Assembly: GCA_963930775.1 (NCBI GenBank)
Contig: OZ005699.1
Span: forward strand, 1-64,000
Length of the DNA stretch: 64,000 nucleotides
Source of the DNA: Cliona cf. orientalis
Lineage: Eukaryota; Porifera; Demospongiae; Clionaida; Clionaidae
Reading direction: 5' to 3'
Position numbers and translations under genes: made by a program. The number at the start of each line of letters is the position of its first letter. Position 1 is the stretch's first letter. Positions 2,460 through 57,754 of the stretch are shown here, piece by piece. A model generated the notes under the pieces. It was not told the DNA's origin, ran no database searches, and saw only the letters and a program-made list of their open reading frames with translations.

Positions 2460-3328
2460 TACGCTGAACAGTTACTTTTGTCATGTCAATTAAGCTTGTT
2501 TGTGTCTATCTAACTAGTCACACAAAAATATCCCCATATCCTCCCATATTAAGCTAAGTCTTTGCGTGTTGAAGATCAACGCGGGGAAAATTTGATTATT
2601 AAGGGGCCTAGATGAAGCGCAGCGCAGAAAAATCCATAAATTAAAAATATGCATGCATACAATATAATCTAGTAAAGTTGAGTCAAAGTCATGTGCAAGA
2701 GAGGAGAACAGCAGTTCATCACAATCCATTGACGGGCCATGGTCAAGTGCATCACGCTACATTCTAGTTGTTCACACCACCAACATCCGACGGCTCCACA
2801 TACCGTTAATGCAGGGGCAGCGATCCCAACAAGAGTGGAGGACAAAGCAGTTGACCAAGGCTCGTCTCAGGCTGGAGACACAAGAGGCTACACCAACAAC
2901 CAGTAGATAGCAACTCCCAAAAATCTCTGAATAAAAAAAATATATACGTGATAAACTCAATGGATATATTTAACATTAGCATACACATAGTAATATGAGC
3001 CTAATCCAGTGAAGGTGAGTTAGTACACACACAAACTCTAAAGCTGTGCTCCAAACACACATCACACACACACAAGCCAACACCATATGCACCAGAGTAT
3101 AAGCATACCAAGATTCAGTGGAAAGGCCTCAAGCTAGCACCATGCACCAGTAGAAGCACAATAAATCAGTGGACAAGAGTCTTAAGCCAGCACCATGCAC
3201 CATATGTACCAGTAAATAGACAATAAAGTCATGCAAAAGAACTTGCCTCAATCTAACTATGTGCACCAGTAGAAATTCCAAACAATCCAGTCGGTAGGAT
3301 CATTCCAATTTAAGAACACCAGCAATAG
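2460..3328. other. Intergenic, no gene seen
   Basis: AT-rich subtelomeric DNA. A loosely repeated phrase about 'accatgcaccag..agtaaa' recurs roughly every 60-70 bp between 3090 and 3290, which suggests a decayed minisatellite. No open frame here looks coding. Confidence 0.5.
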
Positions 3329-3650
3329 GTGGTAGAGATGAAGACACAGTACAGCCAAGATCCCAACAATGCAGTAGATCCTTCCAATTGAAGAGCGCTA
3401 GCAACAGTTGGCAGAGATGAAGACACAGTACAGCTGAGATGAAGGATGAAGACACAGTACAGCTGAGATGAAGGATGAAGACACAGTACAGCCGAGATGA
3501 ACGATGAAGACACAGTACAGCCGAGATGAACGATGAAGACACAGTACAGCCAAGATCCCAACAATGCAGTAGATCCTTCCAATTGAAGAGCGCTAGCAAC
3601 AGTTGGCAGAGATGAAGACACAGTACAGCTGAGATGAAGGATGAACAGTT
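3329..3650. repeat. Compound minisatellite
   Basis: Short units built on 'gatgaagacacagtacagc' (about 24-27 bp, at 3420-3545) are flanked by two copies of a segment of about 105 bp, near 3346-3450 and 3545-3645. That segment contains 'agatcccaacaatgcag' and 'gagcgctagcaacagttggc'. This gives a higher-order repeat. Both minus frames across it are open only because the unit lacks stops. Confidence 0.85.
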
Positions 3651-7770: not shown

Positions 7771-8718
7771 GGTGCCTTTGATGTTATATGGCTTCATACA
7801 ATAATTACTAATAATATCGTCGTTCAGTAAATTCAGCCAATGGCTTGTTAGAGTGTAAAAAATGGAGAATTATAATCAATGGCATTATGTGATACTTCTC
7901 GTGTGATCCAAGGTCCTCCCATTTTTTGTGTGTATAACAATGAAAAGGTGACAGGGTCTGGGGACGAGGCTAGCCACAGTCACTTTTAGCTATTATATAC
8001 TTAGCTAATAATCACCCTCACCTTCCCATAGATGTATCATCGTCTGGTCACATCACCATGCAATTGCATTCAAAATCGACCTGCAAATAGTATGTATGAC
8101 ATTAGGATGAACAAAAACTCAAAAGAAAATTGTAATACTCAGTCTAGTAAATGCTTTTCTAATGATAGGATACATTTAGCATAATAATATTATTGTTGAT
8201 AGAGTAGCTACGTACAGGGCCAGGCGCTTTCATAAATATACCCCCCCCCCCCCCCCCTCAGGCGTTTCTAATGATGGTAGAGCGTTTGGCATCTAGCTAC
8301 ACCAAGATCATAATATAAACGCTAAGTTGATGCTCGTGGCAGGGCTCTTTGCGCGTGATCGCGGATGTATATATATAGTACAGCCCCGAGTGACTTACAT
8401 TGTAAGTTTCAAACTCTTCGTTCCATAACATTAGGTGTAGGTCGATCACGTCCATCTCTTAGGCCGTAGACATTTTACATCGAATTTCTTCGCGAGCGCA
8501 CGCAGATCATTGCTATACATGCGCGCATACGCTAATTATTATTGTCAACGCGCAATGCCTATGAGCGCTATTAAAATCATTTGCGCATCAGTGTCATCGA
8601 CGTTGTGTGCTTCGCGTACATACTAGAACCTCATTCCCAGTCCACGGCCACCCGAGCCCAGTGTTGCAATACCTGTACTCGCGTATCGAATTCCAGTTAC
8701 ATGTATGGATTGGTGACC
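7771..8718. other. Intergenic, no gene seen
   Basis: AT-rich; contains a C homopolymer (about 8241-8257). Nothing coding or RNA-like recognised. Confidence 0.5.
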
Positions 8719-8804
8719 TACAGGAAATTTCAAGTTCGTAGTCAGGTTCATTTTACGCATGCGCAAAGCTACTTTTTCAAACGCACTCGCGGGAAAGCAG
8801 GAAC

Positions 8805-9774
8805 ATGCCAATTCCGTACTCGATCGATCTTAGATGGCGGATTGTTTGGATCTACCTGACCCAAAACCGCCCGGTGGCTGAAATAGCGTCCATTGTGTGT
8901 GTTTGTGAGAGAACTGTTTGGCGTTATATTGCCCTGTTTCGGCAGACTGGTGATGTTGAGCCTCAGCAGAGAAAGTATGGACCGACAAAGATGCTAGGAG
9001 ATCTTGAGCAGCTGACATTACTCCATCTAATACTTGAAAATCACGGTATATACCTCTATGAGATTCAACAAATTAAAGCTCGAGAGTCTGTTTGGAGCTC
9101 GCGTAAGCACGGCAACGATATGCAGGACTCTAAGATCTATGGGTTGTTCTCGTCAAGTCATGCGAAGCGTGGCTATTCAGCGTTCAGACGCCTTGAGATC
9201 ACGCTTTATGGCCGATATCTCCATCTATGATCCACAAATGTTGGTCTGGCTAGACGAGACAGGTTGTGATCGGAGAAACACTCTGCGCAAGTACGGCTAC
9301 AGCTTGCGCGGAATTCCAGTCTGCGATCATCGCCTGTTAGTTCGTGGTAAACGATACTCAGCAATACCAGTGATGTCATTGGATGGAATTCATGATGTTT
9401 ATGTCACTGAGGGAACCGTCAATGGTGAGAAATTTGCTGATTTTGTGAGGAACTGCCTCTTACCAGTTTTGAAGCCTTTTAACTACATGAACTCACACTC
9501 TGTTGTGATTATGGACAACGCCAGCATTCACCACGTCCAGGACGTCGTGGATTTAATTGAGAGACAGGCTGGAGCGAAAGTGTGCTTCCTACCGCCCTAC
9601 TCACCTGACTTAAACCCAGCAGAGGGTGTCTTTAGTCAAGTGAAGAGTCTACTAAAACAAAATCATGACCTCTTTCAAGTGTGTGAGGACCCACGAGCAT
9701 ATCTGACGTTAGCATTTGGAATGGTCACCCCAGAGGACTGCTATGGTCACATCATAAATTGTGGATATTTATAA
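8805..9774 (+). pseudogene. IS630/Tc1-like DDE transposase, one frameshift
   Basis: An N-terminal helix-turn-helix (YSIDLRWRIVWIYL, then VAEIASIVCVCERTVWRYI) is followed by a second DNA-binding segment and a DDE_3-type catalytic core: first Asp in WLDETGCD, second in VIMDNASIHH, Glu in PYSPDLNPAEGVF, spacing compatible with DD34E. The ATG at 8805 has a good context (AACATGCC). The protein starts in one frame and must shift by one base near 9070-9085 (..YEIQQI to KLESLFGARVS..) to continue; downstream it is intact to the TAA at 9774. As drawn it would not give a full transposase unless an intron, a programmed shift or a sequencing error is involved. Confidence 0.9.
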
Positions 9775-9822
9775 CAATGACAATAGTAATTACAACACAA
9801 TCATTGTTCATGTCACTGTGTA

Positions 9823-10773
9823 TTAATTTAATTTCTTCAGTGTACTCATAATTGCTTCACGCTCGGAGGCATACTCGGAGTCTGACAATAAGCCCGATTG
9901 CTTAAGACTGTTAAGATCCGCCAACTGCTTGTAACATTTGGATCTGTTCTCTATTAGCTTTGCAGGACTAGTCCCAACAGTGCTTGAAATCGAGGTAGTC
10001 TGAGCATTAGGTGCACCATGGCTTTTCCTTTTCTGTGCTCCTCCAGTTCCTGCTCTCATAAACATGGTTGAGTGTGTGGGTGCTTCAGAGGTGCTGCTAT
10101 AAACTCCCCCACTTAACAACTCTGCCCATATACGGTACTGCATAGACGTGTATGTTGACTCTCCATGTTTCTCCTTCAACTCCTCAATACGTCGCTGGAC
10201 TTTATCATCCCTTTCTTTTTTACGCTTGGTAGGAGGATCATCATCTGAGTCAGAGCTGTCAATTATTGCTGATGATGATGACTTGCCTTTGCGTTTACGC
10301 GTAGAACTCTTTTCCTTTTGTAAACCATCACACCACAAAAGAATGTTTTCTCCCTTTTGTACACTTCCCATCAAGTCTCTGATATCCTCCTTACTTCTTA
10401 GACTAACAACTTTGTTGTTCTGGACATATCCAACATCGAATCGGTCCACGAGGTCATCAGAAAGCTGGGCTTTAATTAGAGATTTCAAATCTTCCAGTTT
10501 AGACACGCACGCGGGATTAATATTCCTCAGAGTAAAGATTTTACCAGAGTCTTTCTTTTCTTTTTCTCCCTTGTGGACAGCTTTAATCAATAATTTGCGT
10601 AAAGTAATTGGACTTGAAGTGACTCGGGCTGTAGGAGCCGGTACGAGCGGTGTCACGGTGACATGCCTAATGGTAGGGGGTTGCCTCACTCGATCTCCAC
10701 CACTAGAACCGTTGTTCACTGTCACGAAAGCCTGTGAGCCAACGCAATTCACCTGAGCTTGGTGATTGGCCAT
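9823..10773 (-). CDS. Accessory protein of the transposon, PB1-like fold plus SHOCT-like tail
   Basis: A 316-residue frame from the ATG at 10773 (AAAATGG context); an upstream in-frame ATG at 10854 would start almost inside the terminal repeat. It is uninterrupted, unlike the neighbouring transposase. Visible parts, numbered from the 10773 start: a disordered start; about 45-150, an alpha/beta stretch with FDVGYVQNNKVVSLRSKED and ILLWCDGL that resembles PB1/ubiquitin-like folds; about 150-190, a Ser-rich, acidic (SSDSDDDPP) and basic (TKRKKERDD) nuclear-type region; and a C-terminal LADLNSLKQSGLLSDSEY helix pair like a SHOCT motif. No catalytic motif. The function is unknown; a DNA- or transposase-binding partner is a guess. 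Confidence 0.8.
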   Translation of the reverse strand: MANHQAQVNCVGSQAFVTVNNGSSGGDRVRQPPTIRHVTVTPLVPAPTARVTSSPITLRKLLIKAVHKGEKEKKDSGKIFTLRNINPACVSKLEDLKSLIKAQLSDDLVDRFDVGYVQNNKVVSLRSKEDIRDLMGSVQKGENILLWCDGLQKEKSSTRKRKGKSSSSAIIDSSDSDDDPPTKRKKERDDKVQRRIEELKEKHGESTYTSMQYRIWAELLSGGVYSSTSEAPTHSTMFMRAGTGGAQKRKSHGAPNAQTTSISSTVGTSPAKLIENRSKCYKQLADLNSLKQSGLLSDSEYASEREAIMSTLKKLN

Positions 10774-11163
10774 TTTTACCGCTTGAACCAAACAGCAGAT
10801 AAGATCATACAGATTCACGCATGCGCAAGTCGTAACTGAAGGGCGGGCTGACAACGAACCTGAAATTTCCTGTACAGTTGCCCTCCTTCCAATTCCTAGC
10901 GCGCGAATAATAATTAGCGCATGCGCAGGCGAGCCACTCGTCTACAATTCCCCACGCCCCACTTTGAGCTGTGCCTGGCCGCGATGCTATTCTAGACTGA
11001 GAAAGAGAAAGCGGGAAGGCTTACCATGTTTTCACTCTTGCCGATTAATCCCACAAATTGTTGATCATGAGCTGGAGGCGAAAGGAATTAAGGAGGTACG
11101 TACGTAGCCAGCAATTTTGAAGTATTTATGTGTACAGACTACATAGTATGCGCATGGTTTCGC

Positions 11164-22492: not shown

Positions 22493-23924
22493 TCATATAC
22501 ACACATACCTGTACCAAAAGAGGGGCAGGGGAACGGTAGACAAGTGCCAAAGAGAATGAGCATCAAATATCCACAGAATCGGAGGAAAATCAAGCAACTG
22601 CAAAAATTAATAATAATTATTATGTTTTGTTCATACTAGTAATTATTGACAAGAACTCACCTCTAGGAGTAGAAAGCAAGATGTACAGATGACTACTAGC
22701 GCACACTTCCACACATACGGCCGCTCACGAAAATGCTAGAGAAAGGAGGGAATGGTACAGCCTAATGCACCATGTGTTGTGTGAGCTGTTTGTACCTTAA
22801 AGCACCATAAGAGCCATATGGCAGTGTAGAAAGTTCCAGCAGCAACAGAGGCAGCCATATTGTAGCCATAGTCAAAACGATAGAAGGAGAGGTAACTGAC
22901 GTGAGCCACAAAGAGCAGCAGCCACAGAGAGAGATACGCCATGTGCCTGGCAAAAAGACACAACAGCTGAGAACAATAGACAACACACACACAAATTTGC
23001 ACATACCAGAGAACTGCAGACGGTCCAGTTATCCTATGAAAAATAATGATATGACATTGTATTAAATTTTATTTTGGTTATCTATTACAAAATTATTTAC
23101 CTCATAAATTGCACCACGATCCCTGCAACTATTAATCCTGCTGCACTGAAATAGTCCAGTTTTTCTGTCCATGGAAGATCTCTGGCATGAAACACTGTTG
23201 ACCAGAACCATGCATTCAACGTTGCCTGTACACACAAAATCATAGTAATGTGCCAGCTGAAATTACTAAAAATTAATACATACTAACCCAGGATTGGCAG
23301 CGTACAGCGAGAGATAGAGGGTAGGAGGAGGGAGAGGCACTGGAGTAGCTCAGGTAACCAATAGTGACAGTGACACCATTCAGTATAGAGAAGAAAGAAG
23401 AGGCTGGCTCTTGGATCCCATAAAACCTAACAAAGGGCCACTGCAGGTGAAGAAAGGAATAGCATGTACGTGACAGCCACGCCACCTCTCAGGTGATTCA
23501 AAGCATAATACAACATTCTCTCTGTGTAACTAGAACACCCCTTTGTAACTACAGATGTTGTAACCAATATGGTCTGAAACACAGCAGTTAGCACTGTGTG
23601 AGGAAGAGAGCCACGCCCCCAAAATTTGTTTTTCTCTTCCATGATATGATCCATACGACATACTTTGCCATAAAACTGCCTGATAGGCCTGCTGAATTTG
23701 ACGTCATCATCAGTTACGGATCGCATACAGTCATATCGGCAGTTTTCGGTACAAGACCATCCTAGAGCTCTCAGCCACGGGTCGGCCAGCACAGAGCCAG
23801 AATCACATCGCTCCCCGTCACAGCGAGATACGCATCGCCTGAAATCGACACTCCTATCGCCAATACTCGCTTCGATCGCTACCAACTTCAACGACAGCAC
23901 CCACACCACCAGCGACAGTGACAT
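22493..23924 (-). CDS. PGAP3: PGAP3 (Per1-family) GPI-anchor remodelling protein
   Basis: Multi-pass Golgi/ER protein that removes an unsaturated acyl chain from GPI anchors (family knowledge). The start at 23924 gives a signal peptide (MSLSLVVWVLSLKLVAIEAS) followed at once by the Cys-rich Per1 lumenal domain: SIGDRSVDFRRCVSRC, LGWSCTENCRYDCM. Later exons give KWPFVRFYGIQEPAS, NAWFWSTVFHARDLPWTEK, VSYLSFYRFDYGYNMAAS and LLDFPPILWIFDAHSLWHLS, all family blocks. The C-terminus is uncertain: reading through gives ..FWYRYVCI and a stop at 22493, but CAG/GTATGTG is a good donor and a last small exon may lie further left. Head to head with DDX23, 77 bp between ATGs. Confidence 0.93.
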
Positions 23925-24001
23925 TCTAAATAGCGCACAGCAAGCATGCAGTACTAGCTGGGCATTAATTGGAATTCCTTGGTTGGCCGAACGTTTGCAG
24001 T

Positions 24002-27535
<3,534 letters not shown>

Positions 27536-37663: not shown

Positions 37664-40600
37664 TCAACACTCAGTCATTCGAGAAGGTGGGCGGGGACAG
37701 AATTCCGTCAGTCGGCATGGCAACCGATCGGCTGTCTGTTTGTAGTGTTTGAGGAGCTGATCGATGGTAGCAAATGGCGGGCCATCATCGATGCGGTACA
37801 TCACCATACCACTGGGGTGCTCCGCCTGGGGACAGGGGAGACAGAATACACCAATGGATTACACTCGATATCTAATTACAATCAATATTATCTTAAGACT
37901 GAGACAAGCTCTATTTGCATAACTCACTGGAAGAATTTGGAAGTTTTTAGAAACTCCTTTGGCATACATAGTGAGCACATACGAATTAGGAACAGTAGTG
38001 CTATCACGCACCAAGTAGCATCTGGACAAGGAGAGAAGTTGAGAAAATTAATTATGATATCGGCTGATCACAATTCAGTTACAATGAGGGATTTACCCGT
38101 CATATCCTCCGACAGCCTCTAGTCTCCTCACAGCTTCGTCGCGAGGTATAGCTCCATGGTACCAAGCAAACACAAACAGAGCTTCTTTGTCAGGAGACGG
38201 TGTGGCTGGGGAAGCATTTCGAGCCTGGGGGGCCGGTGGCTGCTGGGAGGGCGTGGTCCTTCGGGGGGCCGGCTGAGGGGGCTGCTGCTGCTGCTGCCTA
38301 GTGTGGCCGGGCTCGGGGGAAATGTGGGGAGGGGGCGCAGGCTGTGTGGGGGCAGGGTAAGGATTGTACGGCCCTCCCTGCTGCTGCTGCTGCTGAAAGC
38401 TGATTGGCTCATCCACTACCCCGTTGCTACTGACAACTGTTTGTGGAGTGGTGTCTCTGCTTGGCTTGGGGGCTGGTGTAGGCTTACTGGGCTTGGGGGC
38501 CACCTGCGGGGGAGCTTTGGGGGTCATGCTTGGACTTCCATGGGGGGATGGCTCTCCAGTGTGATCGCTGGCCCCCACGCTATCAACGCTGAGGTCAGTG
38601 GAGCCCTCTCTATCATCTCCATCTGGGCGAAGAAGGTGAGGGGAGTTGTAAAGCTTTCTTCTCAGCTCCTCCTCCTCCTTCTGCTGTTTGTACTGCTCAC
38701 GCACTTTATCAAGATGTTTCTCCAGCCTCAAGCCAATCAGTTTACTGGCACGCTTCTGCAGAGATAGAGGAAGAGAGAAAGAGTAAATAATGAAAAACTA
38801 ACACACATAGTGTCATTTTCTCAGCTAAAAAATCCACAGACGGTAGATAAACGGTTTAATGTGATAACCATAATTATGTTAACTCACATCAGCGTTGCGC
38901 TGTACTCCCTCTGGGGCTGCAAGATCCTCTAGCTTAAACTGTGTCATCTTTGCTTTATGGAAGTTATCCCTGAGCTGGAGACCGTACTTGGCCAATCGGA
39001 TTCCAGCCGTCCACGAGAGAGCTGTCTGTTCATCATCACAGCAGATCACCTTGATATCTTTCGGTAGAGGTACTACGGCCTTTGGGATCGGCTGTATGTG
39101 TGTGTGTGTGTGTACGTACAGTGAAAGAGAGTGTGCTGTGAGTAAAGGGAGTGTGGGCAAAATACTATAAAGTGACTGAGAACAATGTATCGTATCAAGA
39201 GCCATTTCAACAATACCATACATCCTCTCATATATACATCATACCATGTACACTACATATATGTAGCAGCCAGGCACGGAGACACAGGTGGCGAGGCCTA
39301 CCAGGCATGCCAATGTGCATACTGAGAAGATGTAGCTACTGGCAGACTGCCAGGGAAATGAATTAACCTACCCTTAGGGCGAAGCAGAAATCTGTGGGAG
39401 CCTTTAGTGTCTTCTTAAAGTTGATGCCATGGAAGAGCTCATACTCGTCAAAATGGCAGAGGAGCACCAGATGTTTCGCCGTCTGCAATCAAGATACATT
39501 AACCACTTAGTATGCAGACATTGTGGAAAATTAATCATCCGATACGGCACATGTGCTGACTCTAAATAGAGCCCACTCTCCAGCTTTGTACCTTAGATTT
39601 TCCCTTGGTGGAATAGTAGAGTCCCGACGCCCTTAGGATGATGTAGACCTTCTTCCAACTCTTCTTGTAGCCATCTTTGAGGTTGAGAAATCCCTCTAGC
39701 TCAGGCACTCGTGAAGTTGAGGAGAAATACTCCTGCAGAAGGATCTTTCTTGCCTTCTCTGTCCTCTCTAGAGTGGACTGCTTGTTGGTGGCTGCCTGAG
39801 ATGATCTCAGGTTGTCTGGGAAGTATTTCTAAAGGAAGGGCATAAAGTGACCACATTATCCTAAATACTGCCCACCATGTCACTCATCACATACCATTGG
39901 ATCCTCAAATAGGTCGTACTTTCTTTCGTTTTGCTTGAAGAGGAAGACATTGTTGTGGTCCCTTGGCCAGGAGGAGTAGACGGTCACGACACACTCGTGG
40001 TCCTCCAGCTCTCTCTCCAGACTCACATCTCCAAGCTGCTCCACGATAACCCAGTTGGGGCTCTCGTCAAAATGGTTCTTGTTGACGAGAAGATGGCAGA
40101 CCATGCCAGCAGTCATCCCTTCCTCAACAACCACTGTCTTGTTAGAGCGATCCGGGTTGAAAAATTTGATAGCCACACGCCTCTTGTGAGCAATCTTCAT
40201 CTTTTCAATGCCAATACGCATCTTCTCCTCCTTGAGGATCATCTCTCTCTCCACGTCCGTCAGACTTGGGTCATTGCGAAGTTCTGCTGCCTTTTCATCG
40301 AGCCTTTGCTGCACTGCCTCTGCAGTCATCTGCTCTGTAGCCCCAGAGAGATCTGGCTGGGGAACAGTCACCACTGTGGGCTCCTCGGAGGCTAAATAGG
40401 AGAGGGAGAGAGAGAGAGAGAGAGAGACAGAGAGAGAGAGAGAGATCAGTGATGTGTTGTATAAACAAAGGCTGTTAATATGAGAGGTTGCTAGTGAGCG
40501 GCTGCTCGCCACTTAGGCTAAAAAGAATTTTAGGAATGTAAATTTATTTAATAGCAAAGCAACAGAGTAGAGAAAGTGGAATAATTGTTACAGGCTGTTA

Positions 40601-43035: not shown

Positions 43036-44621
43036 ATGGCTGAGGACGATGAGCGTTGCTTCAAAAATCCTTATTTAGTAGACAGTGCTTGCGATCTGTC
43101 CTTTGCTGGCGCAACAGAGAAGCCAGAGGTATCCTGCAAATACGGGCATGTTGAAATATCTAGGGGATTATGTATAGTTCTCCATCAATGCTGCTATCTT
43201 CCTGCATGCAATCCGCTCTGTGCATAGGTGATTGGTAACCTCAAGGTCAAGTTACAGGAAGCCATCCAGTCTTGTTTACCACTGCTGGAGTCATCCAATT
43301 CAGGCAACAGGGATCAATCCATCTATACTGGAGTCACTGGTATGGTATGCACATCAACAATTACCTAGTCTGCTTTACAAATTTTCACTCATTTGGGAGA
43401 TTCCATGGTAATGCATGCTGCATGCATAATATCCTGTCCATGCATCCTTACAGGTGTAGCACTGCTCCTGCACCGCATTGCAACAAGGCTTTATTCTGAT
43501 TCTCCTGATGAAAGTCGTGCCTATCTGCATCAAGCTGTGCAGCTGCTTGAGCCAGTGTTATCGCAGCCTGATACACACCGATCTACCTTTCTCTGTGGAG
43601 CTGGGGGACCATTTGCAATCGGTGCCCTCGTCTACAGTCAGCTTGGAGACAATGGAAAGGCTGGGGAGTGTGTGAGAAAACTACTGCAGCTCTTCACGGA
43701 CCAAAAATCAGCCTTTGCTAAACTACCAAGTGAACTTCTCTATGGTCACTGCGGATATCTCTATGCACTACTTTTGGTACGAGCCCACTTGCCAAAGCTG
43801 GTGGATGATTCTCTGATTGCTGAGGTAGCTACGATGGTTCTGGATATCGGAGAGAGACAGAGAGAGGCAAAGTATAACTCCCCAGTGATGTATACCTGGC
43901 ATGGGAAGCATTACCTTGGAGCTGCACATGGAATAGCAGGCATTCTCACTCTTCTATTGCAGGTACAGTATTAGCAGCATCATCAAACTGATTTTATGTA
44001 GCTTCTATATTATTTCTTATGATTAGATTGATTTAGTGTCGCTAAAGCCTCGAATTGACCAGCTGGTTCAGAGAGCTACTGATTTTCTTTTGAGTGTGTG
44101 TTTTTCGTCAGGTAATCTCCCGTCCTCGCTGGAGAGCAGCCATGCTGATAGACTAATCCACTGGTGCCACGGAGCCTCTGGATTCGTACATCTACTAGCA
44201 CATGCATACAGGGTAAGTTAAGGATCATACTTAGGTTAGTAAATATTCCTGGGATGACTACATATTTTTTCCTCAATATTATCAGCGTTATGGTGATCGT
44301 CGTTACTTGGATGGAGCCGAGCGTTGTGGAGAGGTTGTATGGAAGAGAGGTCTGCTGAGAAAAGGCTATGGACTTTGCCACGGAGTAGCAGGCAATGCTT
44401 ACACATTCCTACAGCTATACAGACTGACTGGGAAGACACTTTACTTCAACAGAGCGGTCCATTTTGCCGAGTGGTGCCTGAGCAGTGACCAGAGAGAGTG
44501 CCGTCTCCCAGATAGACCTAACTCTCTCTTTGAGGGATTAGCTGGTCTCATCTATTTCTACTCTGATCTCTTAGCAGGAGCTGACAAAGCTACTTTCCCA
44601 GCTCTAGAACTGCCTCAGTGA
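43036..44621 (+). CDS. LANCL1: LanC-like glutathione-binding protein
   Basis: Five exons (43036-43138, 43228-43339, 43454-43962, 44027-44212, 44286-44621). LanC-fold alpha/alpha barrel of about 415 residues. The zinc ligands are conserved: Cys in HWCHGASGFVHLLA and Cys-His in GYGLCHGVAGNAYTFLQLY. The GxxG-type repeats of the barrel are present (GPFAIGALVYSQLGD, GHCGYLYALLLV, HGIAGILTLLLQ, FEGLAGLIYFYSDLLAG). The animal LANCL start (RCFKNPYL) is recognisable. Family proteins bind glutathione and add it to dehydroamino acids in the cytosol. LANCL1 versus LANCL2 cannot be decided. Head to head with the SAM/SH2 gene, 223 bp between ATGs. Confidence 0.93.
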
Positions 44622-53431: not shown

Positions 53432-56400
53432 ATGGAACTGGGCGAAGGTTTTAAGCTTTGCTCTGGTTTGTGCATCGGAGCTCGAGCTGGAAGAGAGAAA
53501 AACCAACTCCTTCTATCACTTGATATTGGAACGGTTCAAATCTATGACGTATGTGACATCAGATCTCCTCGATCTACTCTTCACTGATGGAGAGTCACAT
53601 TATCATGTAGCTGTCTACCTTGATTACACAGGCTATTTCTCACAGCTGTATTAATAGTTGGCAGCTTCCATCAGATCAGTGCCTCTGTTCTCCAGCGATC
53701 TACCACTCTTCATCAGATCACTACTGGGCTGTGCGGAGCAGCAGGGGAAAACACTCGGCCAATACATCGCTACCGGTACATCTGTGTTCACACCTATACT
53801 GTGATATATAGTGATAGTGGGATGTAGTCTTTGAGGATTGATCTAGGCTACAAAAATGGATTTTTTCTCTGTGTTTCTAGCTGGAATTGCTGAGCTGGCA
53901 TTGTGGTGATGATGACATGCTTGCTGGCAAGTCGGTTGCTCTCCCTCACTCAAAAGTCTTCACATTACTGGATACGCCATCCACTGATAGTCCGGCCGTC
54001 GTCTATGGCAGTGGGGGTGTGGCTGTGGGAGGAGCCAATATACGGCTGACTGAAGCAGAGAGAGATAAAAAGTTGACAAATTCGATGTAAGTTGACAATA
54101 TTATGGGTATACATAAAATAAAATACCGTAGATCACAAATTTTTTGCCGTTAAAAAATTTTCGTTGACGACCTTTTCCAATGAAAATTAAAGACGCGAAA
54201 TATTTTGTGCAATGTACATCAACCTATACCTATTTTGGTCACTAAAGTCTGGTGAAAAAATTTAGACTATGCGAAAAATTTACAAGCGAAAAATTTTACC
54301 AGCGAAAATGTCCCGATCTACGGTATTCTTTCTTTCCATAATCTAATATCAGGGTGCTGTCGGCTGATATTGTCTGCTTTGGTGGTGCTGAGTATGTATG
54401 TGTTGTCAGTGGTGCTAGCAGTGGTAGTGGTGATGCAACCATCAGACTGTGGTCTCTGAGTGAGAGGGAAGCCAAGCCACTGCCTGCCTCAAGCCTCACC
54501 AACACTGTAAGGAACTAGCTACTCTCTCACCATCACTGTTGGCTGATCATTTTCACTGCCGTACTGTAGAATGGTGTTGTGGACTGCTGTGTGTGTGGAA
54601 CATCACTCATTACAATTGGTACGTATTTCAATCACATTTTTTATTTACTGTATAGCTAGAAATATTGGCAGGGATTAAATTTGGCGGTTGGGCCCAAAAT
54701 CGCAATTTGCAGGGATATTGGCGGATTTAAATTTGGTGGTTCGGTATGGGATTGCCATACGTATATATGCGAGTAGGAAATTTTGGTAGATTTTTTAATA
54801 ATTTGGCGGTTGTAATATAGACCGCCAAACCACCAAATTTAATTCCCTGCCAAATTTTCCGGCTATACGGTACTTACATGTAGTTTGTCATTCATTTCAT
54901 GATACAGGTGGCGATGGTTGCTTGTGTAGATGGAGCATTATGGATATTCTCCATACACGTACACTAATGCCGACTCAGCAGTGTACCCTCACACCTCCAC
55001 CACTACACACAGTCTCCGTGTCATGTGACTACTTTGTTATAGTGGGTGTGGCCAGCGAAGGCACCCAGCTCTCAATATGGGACGTCTCCTATTTGACCAA
55101 TCAGGGCAACTCTTTGTTGAGTGACCACACCCCCTCCTTGGATCATGTGACATGCTGTGTGTGTGGTTATGTTGTTGTGTGCGGGAGGGATTGTGTGACT
55201 CTCGTCAGCATGAGGGAGAGAACCAATTATGGAACGCTGGCTGCCGCACTTGGGAGAGGTCAGAGTTCAACTACCATTAGTGGAGATCAAAGATTGTCCG
55301 AGAATAGTGGGACAGGAGCCGTCAGTGTACAGGTGAGATTGAAAGTTTCTACCGTGATAATAATGTATTTTTATTTTCTTAGGGTGACATACAAACACAT
55401 GTACAGAGAGATATGTTGAATATTCTCATCGACAGAAACAGGGTAAAGAGATATTTTTGTGAACTAATAGCTACATCATCTGGATACTGGCTACACATGT
55501 GCAGACCCCTACGCTGGAGCAGTTCATGAAGGAGTTTGCTGTGGTGCCCCAACTGGACTACTCATTAGTGATCAATCGGTTGCTAGAGGAGACAGAATTC
55601 TGGGCTAGGGACGCTATGCTGCGCCTACTCCAGGATAACATCTTCCCTTCAAGGTATATACCCTTATGTAATTGAACGTGAGCCTCCCCCTTATGTAATT
55701 GATGTCATTCATGTGTCCCCTTATATTGTATGCCACAAGCTTACCAATTATAATGTCATGTATGTTATGTGTAGCAAAAATTAAAAATTTATAAAAATAT
55801 TCTCTGCCTGACAATGTCCACCAAAAAAACACTTTTCTGCCGGACGATGTCCAGCAAACTATAAAAATATTCTCTGCCGGACAATGTCCAGCAAACTTTA
55901 TAAAAATATTCTCTGCCGGACAATGTCCACCAAAATAATATTTTCTGCCAGACGATGTCCAGCAAACTATAAAAATGTTCTCTGCCTGACAATATCCAGC
56001 AAAATTTATAAAAATATTCTCTGCCTGACAATGTCCACCAAAATAATATTCTCTGCCGGACAATGTCCACCAAAATTTATAAAAATATTCTCTGACGGAC
56101 AATGTCCACCAAAAACACTTTTCTGCCGGACGATATCCAGCAAACTATAAAATTATTCTCTGCTGGACAATGTCCACCAAAATAATATTTTCTGCCGGAC
56201 GATGTCCAGCAAACTATAAAAAATATTCTCTGCCGGACAATGTCCACCAAAAATATTCTCTGATGGACAATGTCCACCAAAAAACACTTTTCTGCCAGAC
56301 GATGTCCAGCAAACTATAAAATTATTCTCTGCTGGACAATGTCCACCAAAATAATATTTTCTGCTGGACGATGTCCAGCAAACTATAAAAATATTCTCTG

Positions 56401-57754
56401 CCGGACAATGTCCACCAAAAAACACTTTTCTGCCAGACGATGTCCAGCAAACTATAAAAATATTCTCTGCTGGACAATGTCCACCAAAATAATATTTTCT
56501 GCTGGACGATGTCCAGCAAACTATAAAAATATTCTCTGCCGGACAATGTCCACCAAAAAACACTTTTCTGCCAGACGATGTCCAGCAAACTATAAAATTA
56601 TTCTCTGCTGGACAATGTCCACCAAAATAATATTTTCTGCTGGACGATGTCCAGCAAACTATAAAAATATTCTCTGCCGGACAATGTCCACCAAAAAACA
56701 CTTTTCTGCTGGACGATGTCCAGCAAACTATAAAAATATTCTCTGCCGGACAATGTCCACCAAAAAACACTTTTCTGCTGGACAATGTCCAGCAAACTAT
56801 AAAAATATTCTCTGCCGGACAATGTCCAGCAATAATCTCTCTGCCAGACATGTCTAGCAAAATAATAAAAACCTCAATCATATTGCTGCTCGGACTGCAA
56901 TTTTCATATTATACTTCTTTGATTTAGTTTGGTTGGTGAATTGCTTGAAGCAGCACTGGGGAACAAGGACTGGGTAAGTACTGTAATGTTTGATATGTCT
57001 CCATCTCATATTAATCATAGCTACTTTTGGTTCTGTGCAGCCTTTGATCATTGTTGTACTTGAGAAATGCAGTGATTGTGTACCAGAGGGCACCACAGTC
57101 AAGCTGTTGGAAGCAGCACTCAAGTTAGTACCATCACCATCTCTGCATTGTGCTATGTTTCATTTATTGTCATTTTCCTTCAGGCTGCCTTGCCCTGTCT
57201 CTGTCAGTGATGGTGGATTGAGCAGAGATCAGTTGCTAGTGTCACTGCTCAGTGTTCCTGTCAACGATGGCTTGCTGCATCTACCTCTCTCTCAACTGCC
57301 ATTCAACTCTGTCCTAGTAAGACTGAAAAATTTAGGCATTTGTAGGCGTACAAATTTGTTTACTCTTCAGATACTGCTGGAGTGGTTGTGTCATCGCGTG
57401 GATATGTCACATCTACTGACCACACCCACCCATCTAAGCTCCTCCCACCAGCTGTCGTATGATTGTGTCCTAGACTGGATCTCAGTATTGGTGGATGTGC
57501 ACTTTACTGAACTGACTCTACAGCCTCAGGCCAGGCACATGCTTAGTAAATTACATGGAACGATCTTTAAACAGGTATAATAAACAATATTGAATTTGGC
57601 ATAATGGAGCATTACTGGCACATCCATTGTTTAGGTGAAGTGTCTTGATCACCTATCAATAGCAGGGGCTGCTCAGCACATGACCAAGGCCACACCCACA
57701 AACTCCTCTGATAATTGGTTGTACAAAATTGAAAAATTACCCATCAATATTTGA
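53432..57754 (+). CDS. NOL11: NOL11-like nucleolar protein
   Basis: UTP-A/t-UTP component of the small-subunit processome (family knowledge). Exons include 53432-53548, 53632-53775, 53881-54086, 54353-54506, 54570-54618, 54908-55332, 55383-55442, 55505-55653, 56928-56973, 57041-57123, 57184-57316, 57371-57574, 57635-57754. The N-terminal beta-propeller begins MELGEGFKLCSGLCIGARAG and LLLSLDIGTVQIYD; later blades: FGGAEYVCVVSGASSGSGDA, LSIWDVSYLTNQGN, VVCGRDCVTLVSM, TLAAALGRGQ. The helical C-terminal part has KDWPLIIVVLEKCSDCVPE and VLDWISVLVDVHFTEL, which match NOL11's MDWICLLLDANFT region. It is shorter than human NOL11 in the middle. One intron holds a 1.1-kb repeat array. Confidence 0.82.
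54124..54325. mobile_element. 202-bp family B MITE, copy 2
   Basis: Starts TACCGTAGATCACAAATTTT and ends AAAATGTCCCGATCTACGGTA-type inverted repeat. Same length and layout as 31601-31802, with recognisable shared phrases (cctatacctattttggt and its reverse complement), so the two copies may be inverted relative to each other. In a NOL11 intron. Confidence 0.88.
54646..54872. mobile_element. 227-bp TACYGTATAGC MITE, family D
   Basis: Inverted ends TACTGTATAGCTAGAAA.. and (reverse complement) TACCGTATAGCCGGAAAATT. The interior repeats 'aaatttggcggtt' and its inverse, forming a long imperfect foldback. In a NOL11 intron only 320 bp after the family B copy. Confidence 0.88.
55790..56875. repeat. 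Intronic minisatellite of palindromic units
   Basis: More than 30 half-units of about 32-36 bp, mostly alternating two types, one ending CCACCAAAA and one ending CCAGCAAACTATAAAA. Each half-unit contains the odd-length palindrome GGACAATGTCC or its variant GGACGATGTCC. Together the pair forms a higher-order unit of about 68 bp. The array fills most of the NOL11 intron 55654-56927, the largest in the gene. Long open frames exist on both strands (up to 242 codons), a by-product of the stop-free unit. Confidence 0.93.

Follow-up and report, generated by a model that had tools for sequence, protein, structure and literature searches.

A two-gene element of the IS630/Tc1/mariner superfamily with a PB1-like second protein in the sponge Cliona cf. 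orientalis

The first 64,000 nucleotides of contig OZ005699.1 from the sponge Cliona cf. orientalis (assembly GCA_963930775.1; hereafter the window) contain a transposable element of 2.15 kb with two convergent genes, a transposase gene on the forward strand and a second gene, open reading frame 2 (ORF2), on the reverse strand. This element almost certainly belongs to a large group of two-gene elements within the IS630/Tc1/mariner superfamily, a lineage in which, as shown by comparing sequences among copies, transposase and ORF2 have been inherited together and have diverged together.

Pairing and shared inheritance of the two genes

When the genome (216.8 Mb in 149 contigs) was searched, the transposase query matched at least 150 places and the ORF2 query 142. 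Nearly all of the listed transposase matches (148 of 150) have a convergent ORF2 within 1.5 kb, with a median gap of 126.5 bp, a count that grew from 95 to 139 and then to 148 of 150 with the use of diverged ORF2 queries. The two-gene lineage put forward in a preliminary description of the window is thus borne out, and copies lacking the second gene, which that description had named as evidence against it, were looked for. Four of the first five apparently ORF2-less loci that we fetched hold a diverged ORF2 in the same place, the exception being locus L073, and an ORF2 profile search found the gene in 10 of 11 fetched loci. This leaves two of the 150 listed transposases without a recognized ORF2, namely L073 (C1:19008954), which is degenerate, and C2:6703353, seen as a listing entry only. 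A short frame on the transposase strand of L073 (1-3862) resembles the ORF2 N-terminus by eye and is perhaps an inverted remnant. Among 40 further transposases, picked by eye from matches to other queries and absent from the first 150 listed, 27 have a convergent ORF2 match and 13 have no listed ORF2. Merging the ORF2 matches (the 142 places, all 150 of another list, 8 of 138 and the new-looking ones of 149) gave at least 217 loci, a lower bound because only part of the two later match lists entered the count; 163 of these loci adjoin a transposase among the matches listed, and, those matches being a lower bound too, the other ORF2 loci do not bear on the pairing either way.

The two genes are each in one open frame in 21 elements (a frame being called at 270 profile positions for the transposase and 230 for ORF2). 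Across these elements, transposase distances correlate with ORF2 distances at a Mantel r of 0.935, and at 0.911 for 16 separated representatives, with none of 20,000 permutations as high in either case. Median differences at codon positions 1, 2 and 3 are 0.448, 0.288 and 0.646 for the transposase (453 pairs) and 0.492, 0.406 and 0.669 for ORF2 (317 pairs), a pattern that points to protein-level constraint on both. Comparison of aligned blocks shows where this constraint sits in ORF2: in the PB1-like block, the helical core and the C-terminal hairpin (median identities of 0.42, 0.44 and 0.51) rather than in the linkers (0.17 and 0.23). Given a median identity among the 16 representatives of 0.37 for ORF2 versus 0.56 for the transposase, ORF2 evolves faster than its partner. 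The ratio of nonsynonymous to synonymous substitution, a check suggested beforehand, ranges from 0.12 to 0.24 for the transposase and from 0.22 to 0.59 for ORF2 in four near-identical pairs per gene, which are too few to rank the two.

One earlier argument fails. The preliminary description took an open ORF2 beside a broken transposase as a hint of selection on the accessory gene, but contig C1 carries another copy, which agrees with it at 2148 of 2151 aligned bases (99.86%) apart from two small indels, one per gene, and shows the reverse, with an open transposase (321 amino acids) and an ORF2 split into two frames. Since the two copies are mirror images in their breakage, the pattern of open and broken genes carries no information on selection; most simply, both would be recent copies of an element in which the two genes were open.

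Relatives were also found in sequence databases, with 167 homologues of ORF2 (E ≤ 0.001), 1199 of the transposase (E ≤ 1e-5) and 21 of a distant ORF2 type. When the best 120 matches of each protein were compared, 22 longest-contig sizes were common to both. Two of these sizes, 1169 and 1796 bases, leave no room for both proteins and show that lengths can coincide by chance; the other 20 suggest that the two genes share contigs. Searches of prokaryotic species genomes and of IMG/VR gave no confirmed relative.

Element ends, encoded proteins and surrounding sequence

The inverted ends of the window element (8719-8745 and 10848-10874) are complementary at 25 of 27 bases, with the TA of each side counted, as first described. 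Its flanks, joined with one TA kept, have 26 matches elsewhere in the genome that run through the junction, the best of them at 99% identity (C14:8393819-8394133, query 18-331, 315 genomic versus 314 query bases) and the remainder at 83-90%, mostly close to contig ends. For the C1 copy, 13 places match its joined flanks in the same way at 95-99% identity, with C1:32821942-32822138 as the best. We take these 26 and 13 alignments to be empty sites of two insertions, and their being uninterrupted indicates that the element boundaries and TA target are right. The insertion site of the window copy (8500-8720 and 10875-10990) is itself a repeat, mostly subtelomeric, and a 21-bp inverted pair (8523-8543 and 10906-10926) flanks the element. 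Among 31 elements examined, 22 have TA at both ends and 9 lack a TAC end under the rule applied; 19 of the 31 have terminal inverted repeats (TIRs) of one style (at least 20 of 27 bases identical), and three of the 22 TA-ended elements matched poorly (12-14 of 27). The consensus ends, well placed in those 19 of 31 elements, are near TAC.G...TTTTCAGGTT.GTTGTC.

The transposase reading frame is broken in the window copy, as expected from the preliminary description, because the helix-turn-helix (HTH) domain HTH_23 (E = 7.4e-7) and the DDE_3 domain (E = 1.8e-28; 99.7 bits against a cut-off of 28.6) match in different frames; its start was set by comparison with the 321-residue reading frame of locus L002. 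The NCBIfam IS630 model scores 150.6 bits (cut-off 100), and 29 of 31 genome copies carry the DDE triad, as do 117 of 121 alignment rows (120 database proteins and P0121). With 35 residues between D and E in 18 of the 31 copies and 34 in 13, we classify the transposase as IS630-type, DD34/35E. The element has the TA duplication, short TIRs and HTH plus DDE/D transposase of the IS630-Tc1-mariner superfamily; with two genes in 2.15 kb it departs from Tc1/mariner in the narrow sense, which has a single ORF of ~1.3 kb, and the spacing of 34 typical of that family (DD34E or DD34D) is shared by some of the copies.

ORF2, also found intact as described, is open for 316 codons (9826-10773, reverse strand) with its stop codon at 9823-9825. 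A PB1-like stretch had been reported in it; the Pfam PB1 model gives no match to the window copy at E ≤ 0.01, and matches 21 of the 72 members of an ORF2 alignment (A1) at that threshold. Against a model cut-off of 23.6 bits, one relative scores above (P0090, 27.7 bits) and another below (P0073, 19.1 bits). The predicted fold of ORF2 matches PB1 chains, host PB1 scaffold domains among them, and the N-terminal block is accordingly modeled as having the PB1 ubiquitin-like fold. Seven positions (K60, K64, K74, K78, R83, K97 and K101) are basic in 93-100% of rows, and five (D107, D113, D130, D133 and D149) are acidic in 96-100%. PB1 domains of type II have a lysine or basic cluster on strands 1-2 without the acidic OPCA motif; because the basic cluster and the acidic positions are both conserved here, the ORF2 domain could be of mixed type. 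The C-terminal helix pair, earlier called SHOCT-like, should be described as SHOCT-like only, since the window copy falls below the Pfam cut-off (E = 0.011; 15.9 bits versus 27), yet 39 of the 72 members match at E ≤ 0.01. A charged stretch does exist at ~153-181, as had been noted, with a poorly kept sequence (median identity 0.17).

In the window copy, a palindrome separates each TIR from the start codon closest to it. In 19 elements with well-placed ends, near-identical copies among them, GCGCATGCGC-like palindromes occur 39 times in the terminal 150 bp (6.84 per kb), with none in the interiors and 0.65 per kb in the flanks, and are present at both ends in 13 of the 19. The 12-base form TGCGCATGCGCA occurs at 3141 places in the genome (versus 16 for a reversed control), so the palindrome is not specific to the two-gene lineage. 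It resembles the animal NRF1 site, and its likeliest function is to bind a host factor at a promoter, not to bind the transposase; across the genome, TGCGCATGCGCA could mark host promoters, could have been carried about by mobile elements, or both.

Table 1. Coordinates of the element and its parts in the window
Feature	Position	Strand	Basis or content
Whole two-gene element	8721..10872		Terminal repeats, TA flanks, empty sites
Left TA target-site copy	8719..8720		Inverted-end comparison; empty sites
Right TA target-site copy	10873..10874		Inverted-end comparison; empty sites
Left terminal inverted repeat	8721..8745	+	25/27 bases complementary, TA counted
Right terminal inverted repeat	10848..10872	-	25/27 bases complementary, TA counted
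Left subterminal palindrome-bearing repeat (CGCATGCGC)	8752..8766		Repeat D1; upstream of transposase ATG
Right subterminal palindrome-bearing repeat	10814..10828		Repeat D1; upstream of ORF2 ATG
Transposase gene, IS630/DDE_3 type, broken	8805..9774	+	Frames 8742-9230 and 9031-9774; domain matches
ORF2, 316 amino acids and stop	9823..10773	-	PB1-like ~56-152, helical core ~182-245, C-terminal hairpin ~268-315

Elsewhere in the window, the contig opens with a 307-copy CCAAAC array (CCCAAA/TTTGGG phase; 1-1833) that looks like a telomere of the TTTGGG type; the usual animal telomere repeat is TTAGGG. Contig C1, the one contig that the genome listing covers, also starts with this repeat; the control pattern, another phase of the repeat, is uninformative. 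Tandem arrays with units of 19, 29 and 69 bases lie at 1827-2334, 3416-3556 and 55796-56871, and gene pieces contain a LANC-like domain (43369-43971, forward strand), a Per1-like domain (23430-24077, reverse) and a Ras-association domain (39883-40512, reverse).

Proposed role of ORF2

Having diverged along with the transposase, ORF2 probably helps the element to move, and an element-encoded transposition cofactor is on balance the role that we favor. That it acts specifically in nuclear import or transpososome assembly is a more tentative proposal. The hairpin would self-associate, the core would contact transposase or DNA, and the PB1 domain, whose basic face is almost invariant, would polymerize or bind an acidic partner; a multimer of transposase and ORF2 on the two ends would then aid nuclear entry and end pairing, a part played in Harbinger elements by their second protein. 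It seems doubtful that a branch of IS630/Tc1/mariner depends on an obligate second subunit of this kind, a PB1 scaffold that polymerizes or docks to host PB1 partners and steers the transposase to the ends, into the nucleus or past silencing.

ORF2 could instead be directed at the host, keeping the element expressed either through binding of its PB1 domain to PB1 scaffolds of the host (p62/NBR1/aPKC type) or by countering silencing. The match of the predicted fold to host PB1 scaffold domains agrees with this, as do the faster evolution of ORF2 relative to the transposase, often seen in host-facing proteins, and the near invariance of K60, K64, K78 and R83, which hints that the partner has an acidic face. 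The tight one-to-one co-divergence, however, better fits a protein working with the transposase, and we consider a host-directed role unlikely. Less likely again is a self-regulator that binds transposase or ends and limits transposition. Convergent genes with separate promoters would permit separate dosage, and copies with an open transposase and a broken ORF2 do exist (e.g. C1:3318009), yet such a regulator should be lost repeatedly from active copies, and 148 of the 150 listed loci keep a recognizable ORF2. The possibility that ORF2 is a host gene captured once, which the preliminary description had set against its own proposal, or a chance frame opposite element DNA, would find support in the window copy alone, where ORF2 is open and the transposase broken. 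It is refuted by the number of loci (at least 217), the co-divergence and the 148 of 150 pairings, to which the 167 database homologues can be added; we regard it as extremely improbable, an outcome in favor of the original proposal.

Comparison with known systems

Transposases of the Tc1/mariner type are the standard example of an enzyme that works as a single protein, and they are in wide use as genetic tools; a second protein kept through deep divergence raises the question of what it adds, be it import, end pairing, target choice or regulation. Second proteins are familiar from Harbinger elements, where they are Myb/SANT-like; the window element differs in its IS630-type transposase, and no Myb model matches the window ORF2 or the 72 members of alignment A1. 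Single-gene Tc1 (DD34E) and Incomer (DD36E) elements share with the window element a TA target, TIRs of ~20-30 bp and a DDE transposase of ~320-350 amino acids, but these elements have one ORF in ~1.2-1.3 kb (PMC7325037, PMC6875036), in contrast to the 2.15 kb and second convergent gene found here. They agree with the earlier statement that elements of this superfamily normally encode only the transposase; the statement does not extend to the ciliate TBE and Tec elements, which belong to Tc1/mariner and carry additional genes, one of which is in reverse orientation. The three TBE ORFs are all described as under purifying selection. TBE and Tec differ from the sponge element in their three ORFs, which include partners of the zinc-finger/kinase or site-specific recombinase type, and no zinc-finger/kinase or recombinase Pfam domain was found in the window ORF2 or the 72 alignment members.

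The Kolobok lineages, KolobokP and KolX among them, also combine a DDE transposase with an accessory gene, on the complementary strand in KolobokP, but belong to another superfamily with a TTAA target and nuclease, helicase or KolX partners (PMC9587614). Because TBE/Tec and Kolobok carry them, accessory genes as such are already known in DNA transposons, the IS630-Tc1-mariner superfamily included. Searches of an open-licence literature library turned up no IS630-type lineage with a PB1/SHOCT-like protein as its regular partner. The nearest likeness in domain content is plant MUSTANG-B (MUGB), in which a PB1 domain is joined to a transposon-derived gene (reviewed in PMC8616336); there it was acquired as an exon by a domesticated gene of Mutator origin, whereas the PB1-like domain of ORF2 belongs to a separate gene of a mobile IS630-type element. 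If the lineage does depend on an obligate PB1 subunit, it would represent a branch of Tc1/mariner that has its own PB1 cofactor, evolved together with the transposase. It would also be an uncommon example of a mobile element in which a PB1 scaffold domain is a permanent component.
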